Shown one piece after another: positions 9,782 to 44,416 of a stretch of DNA of 57,343 bases. How positions within the stretch are numbered: position 1 is the first letter of the stretch; every line of letters starts with the position of its first letter. The notes beneath the pieces were generated by a model. The model worked only from the letters and a program-made list of their open reading frames with translations. It was not told the origin of the DNA and did not search any database. Source of the DNA: Armatimonadota bacterium (GTDB taxonomy: Bacteria; Armatimonadota; Fimbriimonadia; Fimbriimonadales; Fimbriimonadaceae); contig JAGQUX010000007.1 in the NCBI GenBank assembly GCA_020438215.1, positions 29,275 through 86,617 of the forward strand. Reading direction: 5' to 3'. Position numbers and translations under genes: made by a program.

Positions 9782-10651
9782 ATGATGTATTCGCGACCTA
9801 CTTACGATGAACTTTGGAGCTACTTTGGCTCCGCCGACAAGCTTCCCCAAGCCTCTGCTTCCCCACTACAACTTTCCAGCTTGCTTGATTCATCAGAAGC
9901 ATCGAATACAGAGATCGAAGCTCTGATCCAGAGTGATCCTGCTCTCACCGCCAGTATCCTGAAAGCGGCAAGCAGCGCGGCATATGGGCGTACCAAGCCG
10001 GTCACTACCATCCGCGAAGCGGTGATGGTCCTTGGCTTTCGAGCAATCCGTTATCTAGCGGTGGCTCTTTGGACGACTGCTCTCCTCACTGAAACTCAGC
10101 ACGACTCCCACTTTGATCCAAAGCGATTTGCTAACAATGGTGTGTTCATCGGCACGCTGGCTGCGAAGTTATTCAATCAAAGCGACGAAGCCAAAGCATC
10201 TGGTTGGACCACCGAAGAAATGTACGCCGCCGGAATCTTGAGCAATATTCCCATCGGACTGATTTCGCTCATGGCACCAGGGCTTTACAACGAACTTTAC
10301 ACCGTGGCGCAAGCAAAAGAATGCTCGCTGGAAGTAGTTTTCAATGCCATGTATGGCAAACCACTGAATAGTCTTGGCGTCCATGCAATGACTGTGCTCG
10401 GCATTCCCGAAGCATTCATTCATGCGCAAGGGCACCTAGATCATCCGGAATCCGCGGAAGAGATTGCCGCCCCGGTTCATATCTTGGCGTACTCCAAGCT
10501 CCAGGCGGATTATTGCGGCTTTGGCGTCAGCGATTGGGAGATCGAATTCAGTTCCAGCGATCCACTTTGGACAGACGATACAGATGTGCTGAGCACAGTG
10601 GATGCAATTGCTAAAAGCTTGAACCCAAAAGAACTGGAGAAGTCGGCGTAA
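9782..10651 (+). CDS. HDOD domain protein
   Basis: The 289-residue protein is covered over about residues 18-215 by an HDOD domain: LPQASASPLQLSSLLD at the start, then IEALIQSDPALTASILKAASSAAYG and IREAVMVLGFRAIRYLAV, the classic HDOD helices. HDOD proteins are relatives of HD phosphohydrolases that lack the catalytic HD residues and act as signalling adaptors, often linked to c-di-GMP, motility or stress. A GGAGG lies directly before two tandem ATGs (9782 and 9785); the second has the better spacing. No second domain such as EAL is attached. The gene appears to be a single transcription unit. Confidence 0.88.
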   Translation: MMYSRPTYDELWSYFGSADKLPQASASPLQLSSLLDSSEASNTEIEALIQSDPALTASILKAASSAAYGRTKPVTTIREAVMVLGFRAIRYLAVALWTTALLTETQHDSHFDPKRFANNGVFIGTLAAKLFNQSDEAKASGWTTEEMYAAGILSNIPIGLISLMAPGLYNELYTVAQAKECSLEVVFNAMYGKPLNSLGVHAMTVLGIPEAFIHAQGHLDHPESAEEIAAPVHILAYSKLQADYCGFGVSDWEIEFSSSDPLWTDDTDVLSTVDAIAKSLNPKELEKSA

Positions 10652-10685
10652 GAAAAAGAGCCTCCCGATTTCTCGGAAGACTCTT
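10651..10685 (-). terminator. Terminator for the subtilase gene (possibly bidirectional)
   Basis: An interrupted hairpin (10656-10667 with about 10672-10685, two internal mismatches, TTTC loop) lies between the convergent HDOD and subtilase genes. Read on the minus strand it is followed by TTTTT (10653-10657), so it most likely serves the subtilase transcript. Confidence 0.55.
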
Positions 10686-10706
10686 CATGTTAGGGCTCAA
10701 TCAGGC

Positions 10707-13700
10707 TTAGTCGCCGACCGCACCCATGTTCAGGGCAACAGCACGAACATCTCGGAAGTCGACCACAAGGTCGCCGTTGATGTCGGCACGTGCATCCCAT
10801 CGCGGGCTACCCGGTGTGGAACCAAGAGCCAATCGCGTGATGATCAGGTCATTACCAGTAACAGCATTATCGCCGTCGGCATCGCCAGGTGTGAGAATGT
10901 GACTCACTTGCCCCATGTTCTGGGCGATCACAACGCCATTGACGCGCTTCGCCAGATAGCCGTCGCACTTCACACGAACGTCGTATGTTCCGACTGTATC
11001 GGTAACGAACATGTAGGTTCCGGTTGCAACGGAGCCAGCAACTGTTGGGTTCACCGAGAAGTTCGCTGCAACGTTGTTGGTACCTGCATCTAGCACGTCT
11101 ACGTTCAGTGCACGGGTGCTGATATCACCGAGGAAGTTGTTGAGACCCACGTATCCTGGGAATGCAACGACTTCTTCACACGGCTCACCAAAGATGGTGA
11201 GGTCATCCAGATAGACACCATCGCGAACGACGGATCCATCGGAAGTGAGGCGGAACTTCACGCGGGCAAAGTCCACATTCGGCATACCGAAGGATTGAGC
11301 CACCCAGTTCGAACTAGATGAACCGTTGAGTGAGCCGAGCACGTTATAGTTCGCGCCAGCATCACCAGAAGCCATGACATACATGTAGTCATAGCCGCTT
11401 TCCAGGTTGTAATTCGCCATGAAGCTCATGGTTGGGTTGATGATGTTTCGGAGATCGTAATCTACCGTTCCCTCCAAGGAGGCATCTTCGTTATTCGCGT
11501 AGTTGCCACCGGGGCTATCAGACCAAGCTCGCGTTGGGCTGAAGGCATTCTCGCTTGAGAGCGCCCATGGGCTATCCGGAGCGAAGTCAGACGAACCTTC
11601 CATATCGTCGAACAAGACTTGCGCCATGCTCACAACACGGAAGTCATCCAGATAAACGCCATCGCGGTTGACGGAGCCATCGGATGTGAGTCGGAAGCGG
11701 AACTGCAGGGAGTCACCGTTGCTGGCATTAACGGCAACGTTTTGTTGTGACCAAGCCGTAGCAGAACCTGTCCAAGTCTTGACTTCGGAGTAAGTACCAC
11801 CATTGATAGATACTTCGAGTCGAAGATAGTCGTATCCGCTTTCCAGATCCATGGAAGCCATGAAGGTCAAGCTGACAGGGCCGGTAACAACCACAGGAGT
11901 GGATTGCACCAGGGCTTCATCAGCATTGCTTGCATAGTTTCCGCCTGGCGAGTCAGTCCAGCTGTTTGCTGGGCTGAACGAATTGCTATTAGTCACCGCC
12001 CATGTGGACGAACTTGCGAAGAGCGAACTGCCTTCGACATCGTCGTTCAGGACAGCTGGATTCGTGGCAAACGGTCCAAACGACTTCACGTTGGATCGGT
12101 TGCCAAGATTGTCAACCGCGCGTACGCCGATGTACTTCGGTGCCGCTGGCTCAACTCCATTAACAACGAAGTTGAATTCAGTGCCTGCAGGAGTAGAAGA
12201 GAAGACGTGCGGCATTGCTTGAGCAGAGCCGAAGTTTCCGTTATCGATTGGGCTGTCGCTCAATCGGACTTCGTAGTGAGAAGCTACGCCGCTCATTCCG
12301 TCGTCACCAGATGCGGTCATCCGGAATCCAGCCGCAGTCACACCGCGCTTGTTCACTGTGAGATTAGCGATGTCAGCCGGAGGAGTGTTGTCAATCTCTA
12401 ACGCATTGTTGAGATTGATTCGACCACCGGGAACAGTTGCCAAAAGGTTGGATGGCTTATCGGCTGTACTCACCATCAGGTCAATAACTTGCCGGGCAGA
12501 GAGCCCTGGATTCATCGATCGGACTACAGCAATTGTCGAAGCAGCATGCGGGCATGCCATCGAAGTGCCGCTGAACACCGAATATGTATTGCTCGGAGTC
12601 GTACTCAAAATATCCACACCCGGAGCAGCGATTTCCACTAGCGAACCGTAGTTCGAAAAACTTGCTTTGCCATCGTTGTGATCGGATGCAGCAACGAGAA
12701 CAACGTTATCGTGTGCCGCGCGCAAGCCTTGTCGTGGAGGGTTTTGAGCTCCGTTGTTTCCTGCAGAGTTACAGTAAACAACATCCGCCGCTTTTGCACG
12801 ACCTATAGCATCGGAAACAGCTTGAGTGTAGCCATCCAAGTTATAGCTAACCGAGATGACACTTGCGCCGTTTGCCCACGCATAGTCGATTGCATTTGCA
12901 AGAGCGGTCATCCATGCGGTTGCGCCACCATAAATTCGGAGACCCATGATGCGAACGTTCGGGCCAACACCAGTAATGCCGACGTTGTTATCGAATTCCG
13001 CACCAATCGTTCCTGCGGTGTGAGTCCCGTGGGAATCACCGGATGCAGGGAGCGGGCTGCTATCGCCGTCGCTGAAGTCCCAGCCAAGTACGTCATCAAT
13101 GAATCCATTGCTGTCGTCGTCGATGCCGTTACCTGGGATTTCGCCCGGGTTTTGCCACATACCACCAGCAAGATCGGGGTGATTGTAGTCAAATCCGTCG
13201 TCGCAGTCAGCAACTACGACTTCCGGGTGATTGAGAACGATGTCCCAAGCTTCGGGAGCATCAATATCTGCATCGAACGTTCCGCCCGTCTGACCCGTGT
13301 TGTTCAGACCCCAAAGCTCACTAAAACGAGTGTCGTTCGGGATGTAATCTCTTTCGAGCTTGACATCAAATTCTGCGTAGCGAATGGCCGGATTGCGTAA
13401 CAATGCACGCACGGCACTTTCGACAGTCAAACCCATGCGTTCAGACGCAGGAGTGATGTCGAGAATCATATGACGAGTTGGGTCTTGGCCTGGTCGGAGC
13501 GAAAGTCCGACTTGACGAGCTGCGAGTTCCCGAACCGCCGCTGTAGAGTTGGAATAGAAACCAACCACAACGTGGTCTTTGGAATAAACGGTCTTTGCTG
13601 GAAGCTTAAAAGGATCAACAATCCCTGGCCGAGCAGGAATATCAAGAGCACGTGTACCCGTGAAGTCCTGCGCCAGTGCTTGCCCACCCAGCATCGCTAC

Positions 13701-13754: not shown

Positions 13755-13941
13755 AAGTAAATCTCCCGACCAACAATTGGCCGAACTTTACTAGGCTACC
13801 AATTCTTGCTACTGCCAGGCAAATTATTTAGTATCAACCCGCAAAATTGGCAGGTGAGCAAAAACCTCTCAATATTCGTGAGCATTGTTCCAACAATTGA
13901 ACCAGGCCACTTCTGCACTGACCACGGCCAGGATCATAGCT

Positions 13942-14550
13942 ATGACGGAATACAAAAAGGTTGGCGATCTTCTCGTTGAAGCCGAGATCATCACCACGGA
14001 ACAGCGAGACGAAGCACTTCTCGCACAAAAAGAAAGTAAAAGCCGATTCGGTGAGATCATCGTCGCGCTGGGCTACGCATCAGAAGAACAAGTGGTTGAA
14101 TGTCTGGCAGCGCAGTACGACTTCCCATTGGCAGACCTTGAGAATCTGAATCCTTCGGATGAAGCGCTCAAGCTCATTTCCCCAACATTCGCGCTTTCTC
14201 GGCTCGTTTTGCCGTTCAAAGTCACCGAATCCTTCCTTTTCTGCGTGATCTCCGATCCGCTGGATATTGAAGGGACTGACTTCCTCACCAAAGCGCTCGA
14301 CAAACGAATTTCTCTTCAACTTGCTCCCGCGAGCCAGCTTTTCGAAGCAATCATGATTCACTACGGTCTGCCCGGCGCAGCGCAACGTGAAAAGCGACAG
14401 CAAGAACTGAAGAAGGCCCTTACCGCCGTTGAAAAGTCGACCGGAACCACCAAGAAGCGAGTGATCAAGGTGCACGATCAAAACGATCGTGCTGAGCTTC
14501 TTGATTCAATTGACACTTTCGACGAACCCAATTACAAAACAGGAACCTAA
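13942..14550 (+). CDS. GspE N-terminal-domain (MshEN-like) protein without ATPase domain
   Basis: ATG 13942 is preferred over 13885 because family homology begins at KKVGDLLVEAEI. Residues 5-57 hold two tandem 24-residue motifs of the MshEN c-di-GMP-binding type. The second (from RFGEIIVALG, 36-45) fits the consensus; the first has Lys for Arg and Glu for the motif glycine. Residues 60-142 form the second GspE-N subdomain (LISPTFALSRLVLPF...). The final 60 residues are charged. Normally this domain heads a type II secretion or pilus ATPase; here it stands alone and is coupled, three bases apart, to a MinD/FlhG-like ATPase. A c-di-GMP sensor controlling that ATPase is an inference. Confidence 0.82.
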   Translation: MTEYKKVGDLLVEAEIITTEQRDEALLAQKESKSRFGEIIVALGYASEEQVVECLAAQYDFPLADLENLNPSDEALKLISPTFALSRLVLPFKVTESFLFCVISDPLDIEGTDFLTKALDKRISLQLAPASQLFEAIMIHYGLPGAAQREKRQQELKKALTAVEKSTGTTKKRVIKVHDQNDRAELLDSIDTFDEPNYKTGT

Positions 14551-14553
14551 TCA

Positions 14554-15312
14554 ATGCTGACCGTAGCCATTACCAGTGGAAAAGGAGGCGTTGGCAAGAC
14601 AACGTTTTCAGCGAATCTTGCCGCCGCGCTCAAACAAATGGGCGAGCGAACGCTCGTGTTCGATGCCGATTTGCAGCTCGCCAACCTCGATGTTGTGCTT
14701 GGCATCAACCCAGAATTCACACTGCAACATGTGGTTGCGGGCAAAAAAGGTCTCCGCGATATCATTACCACTGGCCCGGGAGGCGTTGATGCCGTCGCAG
14801 GTGCCAGCGGAATCCCGGCTTTGATGTCGGCTGGCCCCAAGCGCATGGGAACCTTTATTCCGGAACTTGTGCGCTTGGAGCGAGACTACGATGTTCTCAT
14901 GTTTGACACCGCGGCTGGGCTGGACAATCGCGTGATTACCTTCATGAAATTGAGTCATGAAGTGATCATCGTTTGCACGCCTGACCCGACTAGCATCACC
15001 GACGCTTACGCAACGATCAAGACGATCTGCCGCCGCGATCCGGATGCACGAGTTCGCATCGTCTTCAACATGGCGCATCCGCTGGAAGCCGAAAAGCTCT
15101 TTGCTAAGCTTGAAAAAATTGTTTGGCAGTATCTGAACAAGAATATTGAGCTCCTGGGCTCAGTCCGATACGACCGTGAGGCGATCGCTTGTGGACGTAA
15201 GCGAAAACTCTTTGTTCTCGAACATCCAGACAGTGAAGCCACCGAGGATATCATCGCGATTGGGCGACGATTGAAAGCCGGCGTGCAAAAGACTGCCCTC
15301 TGGGCAAGCTAA
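14554..15312 (+). CDS. MinD/FlhG-like P-loop ATPase
   Basis: The 252-residue protein has the deviant Walker [11 protein letters not shown] (8-17), the switch I-like VFDADLQLANLDVVLG and Walker B VLMFDTAAGL, all typical of the MinD/ParA/FlhG group. An AGGA sequence precedes ATG 14554. No C-terminal amphipathic membrane helix of the MinD kind is evident, and no FlhF or min partner is nearby, so FlhG/YlxH-like is a better label than MinD. It probably dimerises on ATP and positions or counts a surface machine. The upstream GspE-N gene suggests a pilus or secretion link. A paralogue with the same type of partner lies at 41886-42737. Confidence 0.88.
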   Translation: MLTVAITSGKGGVGKTTFSANLAAALKQMGERTLVFDADLQLANLDVVLGINPEFTLQHVVAGKKGLRDIITTGPGGVDAVAGASGIPALMSAGPKRMGTFIPELVRLERDYDVLMFDTAAGLDNRVITFMKLSHEVIIVCTPDPTSITDAYATIKTICRRDPDARVRIVFNMAHPLEAEKLFAKLEKIVWQYLNKNIELLGSVRYDREAIACGRKRKLFVLEHPDSEATEDIIAIGRRLKAGVQKTALWAS

Positions 15313-41885: not shown

Positions 41886-42737
41886 TCAAGCGGCTTCTTC
41901 GTGAGAATCGGTTACTTCAGTCTCTTCCTCTTTCGATTTTGAGAAGTTCGACTTCAGCCGATCCAAGAAACTGAGTTCTTCACCCGTTTCTTCGCCGCTC
42001 GGATCCATCACTTTCTCCGTCAAGGAATAGATATCGACGGCAGCATGGCAGCGAGGTGATGCTTCCACAAATGGATTGCGATTGAATACAGATTTCGCCA
42101 CCGCGGCATCATGCCGAATGGAACCAAAATGCGGAAACTCTTTGCCCAAAAATTGCCCAATGATGGACTGCACTCGGTGGGCTATTTCTTTTCCGTGGAG
42201 GGAGCTCGTTACATCGTTGACAACCAATGCCGCCTCTGTTTCTGGCGATGCTTCCCAAACTGATTTAACCAGCGCATAAACGCTTGTCAAACTCGTTGCA
42301 TCCGGGGTTGTAACGGCGAGCAGAGTGTCCGACGCTTTGATGAAGGGCAGAATCTTCTCACCGACTCCTGGGCCGCAGTCTAAGATGATGTAATCAAACT
42401 CATTTGCGAGCCCTTTCAGGCCATCTACAACCGTTTGCACTGTGCCGGGATCAACGTCAACGAGTTCGGCCCATCCAGAGCCGCCCGTGATAATTGAAAT
42501 CCCATAAGTGGTTTCAAAAATCGCATCTTTGAGTTCTCGATTGTCGCGAATCACGTGCCCGATCGTTGTCGGCACTTCGCATCCGCAAAGAATATCAATG
42601 GAACTCAAACCAAAATCAGCATCAAAAACAAGCACTCTCAGGTCTTCATCCGCCAGGGACAAAGCTAGATTACAGGCGATGATGGATTTTCCAACTCCGC
42701 CCTTTCCGCTTGCGATGGCTATGATTTTCGCGCTCAT
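41886..42737 (-). CDS. MinD/FlhG-like ATPase, second copy
   Basis: ATG 42737 overlaps the previous stop as ATGA (42734-42737), which fixes the start; longer frames are rejected. The 283-residue protein has the deviant Walker [10 protein letters not shown] (10-18), [15 protein letters not shown] and Walker [12 protein letters not shown]. Its C-terminal region contains [15 protein letters not shown], a possible amphipathic membrane-binding helix like that of MinD, followed by an acidic tail. The coupled GspE-N protein just upstream parallels the 13942/14554 pair. It may spatially regulate a surface machine. Confidence 0.87.
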
Positions 42738-44416
42738 GCTGACTTCTTGAATTTGGAAACTAGCTGACTCACCAGCCACACTTTCGTGTGGGAGGTTTCC
42801 AAAATTGCTTTTCGGGCTTGGTCATCGTGAATTTCGATGTAGGCTTCGCGCAATGCAGGCACGACCTGTTCCATCGGAGCTTTCACAACAACAACTCCAA
42901 ACCCTGTTACTTTAGAAATTCGGTCAATTGCTTCTTCATCTACAGGTTCCGCCGCCATCAATTTCAACTTCCCATCCTGGAAACCAAGCGGAAGCGCCAG
43001 CGCGCGCACTGCCATCGGGGCGGGAACTACTCGCAACGCACCGAGATCAGATTCTTCCGTCGAGGTGCTGACCTTAGCCGCCGGAGCTGCTTTTGGAGAC
43101 GCTGTTTGGGCAGGCGCAGCCGCGGCCGGAATATCAACCTCGGGCACATCGCTTGCCTCAACTGGTGCGGAGCTTTGGCCCTGACCAGCTTCCGCTTCAT
43201 CCATCAGCTTCTGCAATTCATCATCGCTCATCGCCGTGGATGCCTGCGGAACAAATTCGGCGTCAGGAGTTCCATCATTGAGAAGTGCTGAAAGTTCTGC
43301 CGCGCTCAAAACCCCAGGTGCGCTCGCAGCGGGTGCAGCTTCAGCAAGCTTGTCTTCGGATGCATTTGCCAACATGGCCGCGATATCATCGTCGCTCATG
43401 TTTCCGCCGCCATCACCGTCATCGCTTGATGCTTCGGCTGCCTGATTGGGCGCGTCTTGTTTATCGATTTCGCCACGAATCAGAGCGGCAAGCTCCTCCT
43501 CGCTCAGATTATCGTCCGCATCGTCAAGGGCCGTTCCTTGCGGAGCATTGGCTTCCACCATTGCCGCGATTTCTGCGTCGCTCAAAACGGTTTCTTCAGC
43601 CGGAGCTTCGGAGTTTGATGCTGCGAGCATCGCCGCAATATCATCCGGAGACATCATTCCGCCATCGTCTTCTTGCGGGGCTTCTCCCGTTTCCGCGTTA
43701 AGAACCGGAGCATCTTGAGACTCAATCTGACCCCGAATTGCCGCTGCTAGCTCCTCCTCGCTCAAACCGTCAGGAAGTTCTTCGACCTCGGCGACTGCCG
43801 GGCCTGATTCTTCGTCAGCTGTCGCTTGAACTTCCAAGGTCTCTTCCAAAAGAACTGCTTCAGCCTCAGCCGCGATATCCGCTTCCAATTCTGCAACTTC
43901 ATGCTCTTCATCTGCCTGAGCTTCAACAAGTTCCAGAGTCACTTCCTGTTCAACTTCCGCGATCTCTTCGGCTAATTCTTCTTCCGCTTCCGCTTGCTCG
44001 ATTTCTTGGTTCGCTTCTTCCAATCCGGCGAGCAAAGCTGCTGTTTCCTCGGCAGTCACTTCGGTGGAATCTGAATCAGGAATGCTTCCGGTTTCCATAA
44101 AATTGTCGAGTTGCGCTTCCATTTCCGCCAACTGGTCAGGCGTGAATGGATCTTCTAGTACTGCATCGGGGAGATACTCGTCAATCTCTGCCGCCGCTGG
44201 CGAAGTTTTGACATTCGCAACTTCTTCGCGAAGCTTCCCAAGTTCTTGGCTCATCTCCTGCATTTGAGCCATCATTTGCATCACCAGATCAGGCGTCAAT
44301 GCCGCCGCTGATGCCTCCGGCTCCGCCTGTTTTTTGGCAGGAGCTTTCTTGCGCGTAGCAGGTTTGCGTGCGGGCTTTGTTGCCTCTTCAACCGATTCTT
44401 TTTTCTTTGCCGGCAT
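42734..44416 (-). CDS. Repeat protein with seven FliM-like EIDALL motifs and a C-terminal GspE-N subdomain
   Basis: The 560-residue protein has a Lys/Ala-rich N-terminus (1-35), a helical segment (40-70), then a long acidic, probably disordered region. Seven motifs of the form (L/M)S-x-x-(D/E)-(I/L)-x-x-(M/L/I) recur at 218, 255, 278, 304, 340, 370 and 396, with a weaker eighth at 120. Examples are [10 protein letters not shown] and [10 protein letters not shown]. They resemble the FliM N-terminal CheY-binding peptide (LSQAEIDALL). Residues 457-530 match the second subdomain of GspE-N; the c-di-GMP-binding first subdomain is missing. The start of the downstream MinD-like gene overlaps it (ATGA). 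A scaffold that recruits several copies of a partner is likely. Confidence 0.8.

Follow-up and report, generated by a model that had tools for sequence, protein, structure and literature searches.

A GspE-N protein bearing an array of FliM-like peptides is paired with an FlhG-like ATPase in one bacterial family

The 36 N-terminal residues of the flagellar protein FliY contain the EIDALL peptide. In FliM and FliY, this peptide is the binding site for phosphorylated CheY (PMC9126983). The ATPase FlhG is a known second receptor of the FliM/FliY N-termini. Specifically, the first 36 residues of FliY are both necessary and sufficient for binding to FlhG via K177, R207, and F215, and substitution at R207 abolishes FliY binding in Geobacillus FlhG (PMC12327844, in which the arginine is given both as R207 and as 277). 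FlhG also binds the N-terminus of FliM, and FlrA has a site in common with FliM (PMC11236974). Finally, a short basic N-terminus is the pattern of proteins that activate ParA/MinD ATPases (PMC7993993).

Here, we describe a gene pair that lies in a 57,343-nucleotide stretch of DNA from an Armatimonadota bacterium of the family Fimbriimonadaceae, which we call the window. The two genes are co-conserved. One encodes an FlhG-like ATPase, and the other encodes a partner protein that possesses a GspE-N domain, an array of FliM-like peptides, and a basic N-terminus. An earlier note on this DNA suggested that the array could recruit a response regulator, or another partner, to the ATPase. What that note lacked is the point that FlhG is a second receptor of FliM/FliY N-termini and that the coupled gene is itself FlhG-like.

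Each of the closest described systems shares some features with the pair. Like FlhG/FleN/YlxH and the FliM/FliY peptide, the pair combines an ATPase of related sequence, the K/R/F residues, and a C-terminal amphipathic helix with an EIDALL-type peptide on the partner. Unlike that system, the window's ATPase lacks the DQAxxLR helix, no FlhF scores above cut-off in the genome, and the partner, with its many peptides, is no component of the C-ring. PomX, ParB, MinE, McdB, and TlpT resemble the partner in their short basic N-terminus, in the position of their gene beside that of the ATPase, and in their coiled-coil-like or disordered scaffold, but the GspE-N domain and the FliM-like array set the partner apart, and ATPase activation is putative here. 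The partner shares with the MshE/PilB MshEN proteins the second subdomain of PF05157, which is closest to that of PilB, whereas it possesses neither the c-di-GMP-binding first subdomain nor the T2SSE motor domain. Its peptides follow the S-x-x-[ED]-[IL]-x-x-[LM]-[LIM] helix of the FliM N-terminus. However, they lack two features of the local FliM, Q3 and the NSL extension, they occur in up to eight copies, and no FliM or SpoA domain accompanies them. The earlier note knew of no described protein with this layout, and we found none in Pfam, NCBIfam, PDB sequences, or open-access papers. Nor did the open-access literature yield a description of a GspE-N/MinD pairing or of a FliM-mimic array.

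Anatomy of the gene pair

Both genes occupy the coordinates given in the earlier note, on the minus strand (Table 1), and they are coupled as it claimed: the ATG start codon of the ATPase gene, at 42737, and the TGA of the partner gene share the four bases ATGA. The genes surrounding the pair are syntenic at the genus level, with MoxR-DUF58-vWA-vWA genes upstream and, downstream, glpX and a PAS gene in convergent orientation. The pair resides outside the genome's flagellar gene cluster.

Table 1. Features of the array-type gene pair and of the sister module in the window
Feature	Coordinates	Strand	Basis
Array-type partner gene, 560 aa	42734..44416	minus	ORF, translation, Pfam, orthologues in 24 genomes
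Basic N-terminus, 35 residues, 11 K/R; resembles ParA/MinD ATPase-activating peptides	44312..44416	minus	Composition test and literature pattern (PMC7993993)
Coiled-coil-like stretch	44213..44299	minus	Read by eye; orthologues with similar hydrophobic spacing
FliM-like motif 1, residue 218	43736..43765	minus	FliM-profile score
FliM-like motif 2, residue 255	43625..43654	minus	FliM-profile score
FliM-like motif 3, residue 278	43556..43585	minus	FliM-profile score
FliM-like motif 4, residue 304, near duplicate of motif 1	43478..43507	minus	FliM-profile score
FliM-like motif 5, residue 340	43370..43399	minus	FliM-profile score
FliM-like motif 6, residue 370	43280..43309	minus	FliM-profile score; MSAAEIAALL in four sister species
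FliM-like motif 7, residue 396, below 8 bits here	43202..43231	minus	MSDEELRALL or close in sister species
GspE-N/MshEN second subdomain, residues 453-526	42839..43060	minus	PF05157 E=2.4e-11; phmmer match to PilB 5zfr
C-terminal amphipathic basic tail, possible membrane anchor	42737..42796	minus	Hydrophobic moment 0.54, net charge +3
FlhG/MinD-like ATPase gene, Walker motif present	41886..42737	minus	ORF, PDB sequence match, orthologues
ATPase region with K172, R202, F210 (P0002 numbering, from upstream GTG)	42150..42266	minus	Alignment to 4rz2
Membrane-targeting helix near ATPase C-terminus, MinD/FlhG-like by pattern	41940..41975	minus	Conserved in genus
Sister MshEN-only partner	13942..14550 (13885-14550 in domain search)	plus	NF053729 E=5.6e-15
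DRAELLDSI tail end of sister partner, conserved DRxxLLxx[IL]-like	14485-14511	plus	
Sister FlhG/MinD-like ATPase, pocket K/K/Y	14554..15312	plus	Alignment

From its N-terminus onward, the partner consists of the basic segment, the coiled-coil-like stretch, an acidic disordered region that houses the motifs, the second GspE-N subdomain, and the amphipathic C-terminus. The 11 K/R present in the first 35 residues were matched in none of 20,000 random draws; K+R make up 2.0% of the acidic body. Most orthologues share the basic N-terminus, which is weak or absent in G022, G150, and G151. PF05157 (MshEN/GspE-N) is the sole Pfam domain, and the closest solved sequences by phmmer, at the level of a weak match, are the GspE-N domains of PilB (5zfr). 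The c-di-GMP-motif model NF053729 has no match in the array partner. Thus, only the second GspE-N subdomain is present and the first is missing, consistent with the original description of a protein that ends in the second subdomain. Pfam detects neither a T2SSE motor domain nor the FliM middle domain, PF02154, in the partner. Most orthologues also possess tails like its basic amphipathic C-terminus, for example, GLMEKIAAMWKKSA and SLLDKVKLLFRRSS.

The seven FliM-like motifs that the earlier note listed, at residues 218, 255, 278, 304, 340, 370, and 396, are all present at those residues, and residues 218-237 and 304-323, called near duplicates, are identical at 16 of 20 positions. We scored the motifs with a 10-residue profile which, to avoid circularity, was built exclusively from the FliM N-termini of related genomes (17 identified by pattern plus one included manually, with LSQAEIEALL as the local consensus). 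Seven sites in the partner reach at least 8 bits, namely those at 218, 255, 278, 304, 340, and 370, plus an additional, weak site at 120. Composition-preserving shuffles of the partner contain 0.34 such sites on average and three at most (n=300), and the background in other ORFs of the same loci is 27 sites in 95,827 aa. A degenerate DNA pattern specifying L/M-S-x-x-E-I-x-A-L-L, loose at its first two positions, was also run over 41 genomes. It returned 63 matches, versus 8 for the reversed pattern. Assigned by coordinates and by eye, 29 of the 63 lie just upstream of a FliM domain, and 10, from nine genomes, lie in the array partner. The same excess over shuffles exists in most orthologues, in which the motifs persist while the linkers diverge. 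Thus, the FliM-like peptide array is genuine and conserved in related bacteria, and its multivalent character is upheld.

The ATPase is nearer to FlhG and FleN than to MinD. Among PDB sequences, its nearest match is Geobacillus FlhG (4rz2, E=1.6e-40), with FleN at 4.7e-37 (5j1j) and E. coli MinD at 2.7e-11 (3q9l). K172, R202, and F210 are the equivalents of K177, R207, and F215 of GtFlhG. Twelve array-type ATPases retain the K and the F (or Y) of this FliY-binding site, as do all 18 that we compared from the two sister layouts, MshEN-only and MshEN plus a kinase-like domain; E. coli MinD lacks both. The N-terminal DQAxxLR helix that activates FlhF is absent from the window's ATPase, and the CbiA/MinD-type matches read in the same genome include no canonical FlhG with such a helix.

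Distribution of motifs, pockets, and flagellar partners

The partner is encoded in all seven other genomes of the genus and, overall, in 24 genomes that represent nine genera of one family. In 24 of 24, a MinD-like ATPase gene adjoins it, shortened and divergent in several; within the genus, the ATPase orthologues are 40-47% identical. Searching the genome contigs with the window's ATPase returned only distant relatives from Legionella and Chloroflexi. The G007 partner is interrupted by a contig end, and that of G006 (L048 9815-11610) is split over two overlapping ORFs, reflecting a frameshift or a sequencing error.

The earlier note named variable or absent motifs among orthologues as grounds for abandoning its idea. 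Variability is real, with motif number ranging from 0 to 8. General absence is not: 22 of the 24 orthologues carry at least one motif of at least 9 bits. G029 has no motifs and G148 has one weak, chance-level site, and in both the ATPase pocket is kept despite the near lack of motifs in the partner. Distant members often come closer to FliM than near ones do, with peptides such as LSEDEIAALL, LSEDEIKALL, LSEDEIEALF, and MSEDEIQALL. The first two of these, which score 24.4 and 23.0 bits, respectively, belong to pairs whose ATPase has lost pocket residues. Specifically, pocket residues are lost from the cognate ATPases of G017, G151, G150, G014, G162, G010, G158, G159, and G149. In addition, each of the seven sister species of the genus has E or Q where Geobacillus FlhG has R207. 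The Walker A lysine is lost in G014 and replaced by R in G022. The Walker A sequences there read GKGGVGQS (L148 4328-5023) and QKGGVGRT (L053 about 10250-10908), and the partners keep their motifs; judged by these residues, both cognate ATPases are probably inactive. Motif and cognate pocket show no positive covariation, which lowered our confidence that the cognate ATPase is the sole receptor. A genome search of G010 revealed no second FlhG-like ATPase.

The bacterium that carries the window is flagellated, as read by eye from its FliM, FliP/Q/R-like, and FlhB-like genes, with the true FliM on contig C31, and it possesses CheA/CheW. No match to FlhF (TIGR03499) exceeds the cut-off of 174 bits in this genome or in 12 others of the family, G001-G012; the best match here scores 84 bits. 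The FlhG-like ATPases of this family seem to operate via GspE-N partners. Within the order, FlhF is present in sister families, only outside this family, and no FlhG was seen beside FlhF in the two loci opened.

FliM exists in 53 of 53 good-quality relatives, so its co-occurrence with the pair has no discriminating power. Among the FliM N-termini (loci L282-L301, L057, and L073-L101), the EIEALL peptide is kept in at least 11 genomes without CheA/CheW (G016, G018, G021, G027, G030, G034, G037, G042, G044, G046, and G051). Thus, a non-chemotactic receptor probably exists for the FliM N-terminal peptide in this order.

Candidate receptors of the array

The explanation that we tentatively prefer, with somewhat less than even confidence, is that the pair consists of an adaptor/activator displaying FliM-mimic peptides and its FlhG-branch ParA/MinD ATPase. 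Support comes from the closer relationship of the ATPase to FlhG/FleN than to MinD, the 24/24 adjacency, the specificity of the motif, the basic N-terminus, the lack of an FlhF above cut-off in 13 family genomes, and a natural fusion of GspE-N with an ATPase (below). The array would most likely serve as a docking scaffold for an ATPase of the FlhG/MinD kind. The gene coupling, the intact K/R/F site, and the preservation of the FliM peptide in genomes without CheA/CheW favor an FlhG-type receptor. The notion is that the partner's peptides would mimic FliM and collect or titrate the FlhG-type ATPase, while the basic N-terminus would stimulate it, as in ParB, MinE, and PomX. The coiled coil and the amphipathic tails could generate a membrane-bound oligomer, and the GspE-N domain could connect it with a machine of the type IV pilus/type II secretion kind or with the cell pole. 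If so, the likely outcome would be control over where flagella and/or pili form, or how many, in flagellated bacteria that have no recognisable FlhF.

Several observations weaken this adaptor/activator explanation. Nine or ten divergent cognate ATPases have lost the pocket or the Walker lysine and their partners mostly keep the motifs, R207 is replaced in the seven sister species, G029 and G148 have a pocket without motifs, array genera all possess CheA/CheW, and a search of G010 revealed no second FlhG-like ATPase. An FlhG-type ATPase, whether cognate or acting in trans, ranks first as receptor, but not firmly.

Persistence of good motifs where the cognate pocket is lost would suit a sink or relay for CheY, in which phosphorylated CheY, or a different protein with a receiver domain, docks on the array as on FliM and chemotaxis signals thereby reach the ATPase and the pilus-type machine. 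The motif does match the CheY-binding FliM/FliY peptide (PMC9126983), and CheA/CheW exist in at least one member of 9/9 array genera versus 11/21 family genera without the array (hypergeometric p about 0.012, calculated by hand and ignoring kinship). Moreover, two motifs are altered in the CheA-less array species G002 and G004 (MSADHIASLL or MSVDHIASLL; MDDDEISRLL). However, G002 and G004 still carry 5-6 motifs, similar changes occur in CheA-bearing G001, CheA-less relatives keep the FliM peptide, and we recognised no che gene in the vicinity of the pair. Recruitment of CheY by the array, as a sink or relay, is possible but rather unlikely. The array could alternatively be a generic multivalent scaffold, whose N-capped helices bind PilB/PilM, GspE-N itself, their own copies, or some other protein, the likeness to FliM being convergent. 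The core, S-x-x-E-I-x-x-L-L, is also that of a plain N-capped amphipathic helix, a common way for a helix to start, and a helix within the ATPase fold (MSEQEVESLI in G002) attains 12.5 bits on the FliM profile. Furthermore, tandem duplication within the array, visible in G001 and G005, provides a route to its growth, and two other motif types, hPxLxxxIxxFN, matched by regex in 10 genomes, and one resembling FAxxhxxALANPE, recur in the orthologues' disordered region (loci L043-L055 and L144-L154), although neither is clearly seen in the window's own partner. Against convergence, the strict DNA pattern finds mainly FliM and the partner, and distant members are often the ones nearer to FliM. We regard such a scaffold, too, as rather unlikely. 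That an acidic, Ala/Glu/Asp/Leu-rich disordered region (27% D+E, Ala-rich) yields look-alike peptides by chance is, by contrast, highly implausible: the shuffle test, the same excess among orthologues, the conservation of motifs amid diverging linkers, and the strict genome-wide pattern refute it.

Returning to FlhG-type receptors, a more specific proposal, which we hold to be doubtful, is that the partner is a C-ring mimic. A disordered, membrane-bound scaffold would present many FliM peptides to FlhG-type ATPases, competing with or counting against C-rings, and, in flagellated bacteria without FlhF, the number of flagella or where they are placed would thereby be tied to a GspE-N docking domain of the pilus type. 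If true, the interaction between FlhG and the FliM peptide would have moved from the motor into a separate, multivalent adaptor, offering a route to setting flagella, pili, and cell polarity without FlhF. More generally, the retention of the FliM peptide without CheA/CheW makes a second, non-chemotactic duty of that peptide testable.

Related modules in the window and the order

The window does contain two versions of one module type, as the earlier note stated, the second being the pair at 13942-15312. This sister module likewise has a GspE-N partner followed by an FlhG-like ATPase; unlike the array type, its partner has no array but possesses the full MshEN, c-di-GMP motif included, and a single DRxxLLxx[IL] peptide in the tail. 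In this bacterial order, a GspE-N partner with an FlhG-like ATPase exists in three layouts: array, MshEN-only, and MshEN plus a kinase-like domain. The MshEN-only layout is that of the sister module and 13 relatives (L159 and L162-L173), in which the disordered tail ends in a DRxxLLxx[IL]-like sequence. We consider this tail peptide a candidate ATPase-binding peptide. AlphaFold was used to predict the in-frame sister module as a single polypeptide, together with 25 related ATPases. The ATPase is for the most part predicted with pLDDT >90, and the tail helix, 180-190, with about 42-51; the model thus gives the tail peptide no confident position, which counts against the adaptor/activator explanation.

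The partners at L155-L158 combine full MshEN, a kinase-like domain, and a DRDxLLxSL-like tail, and they are encoded beside FlhG-like ATPases. The kinase-like domain is a Pkinase match in L155 (8.8e-11) and was judged by eye in L156, L157, and L158. The genome that carries the window also encodes a single-ORF fusion in which a MinD/ParA-type ATPase is joined to a GspE-N subdomain (L067 6269-7663, contig C53). Finally, at L072 3519-7142 (contig C64), the same genome specifies a T2SSE-family motor ATPase of 1207 aa, in which the N-terminal part preceding the MshEN domain is unusually long.
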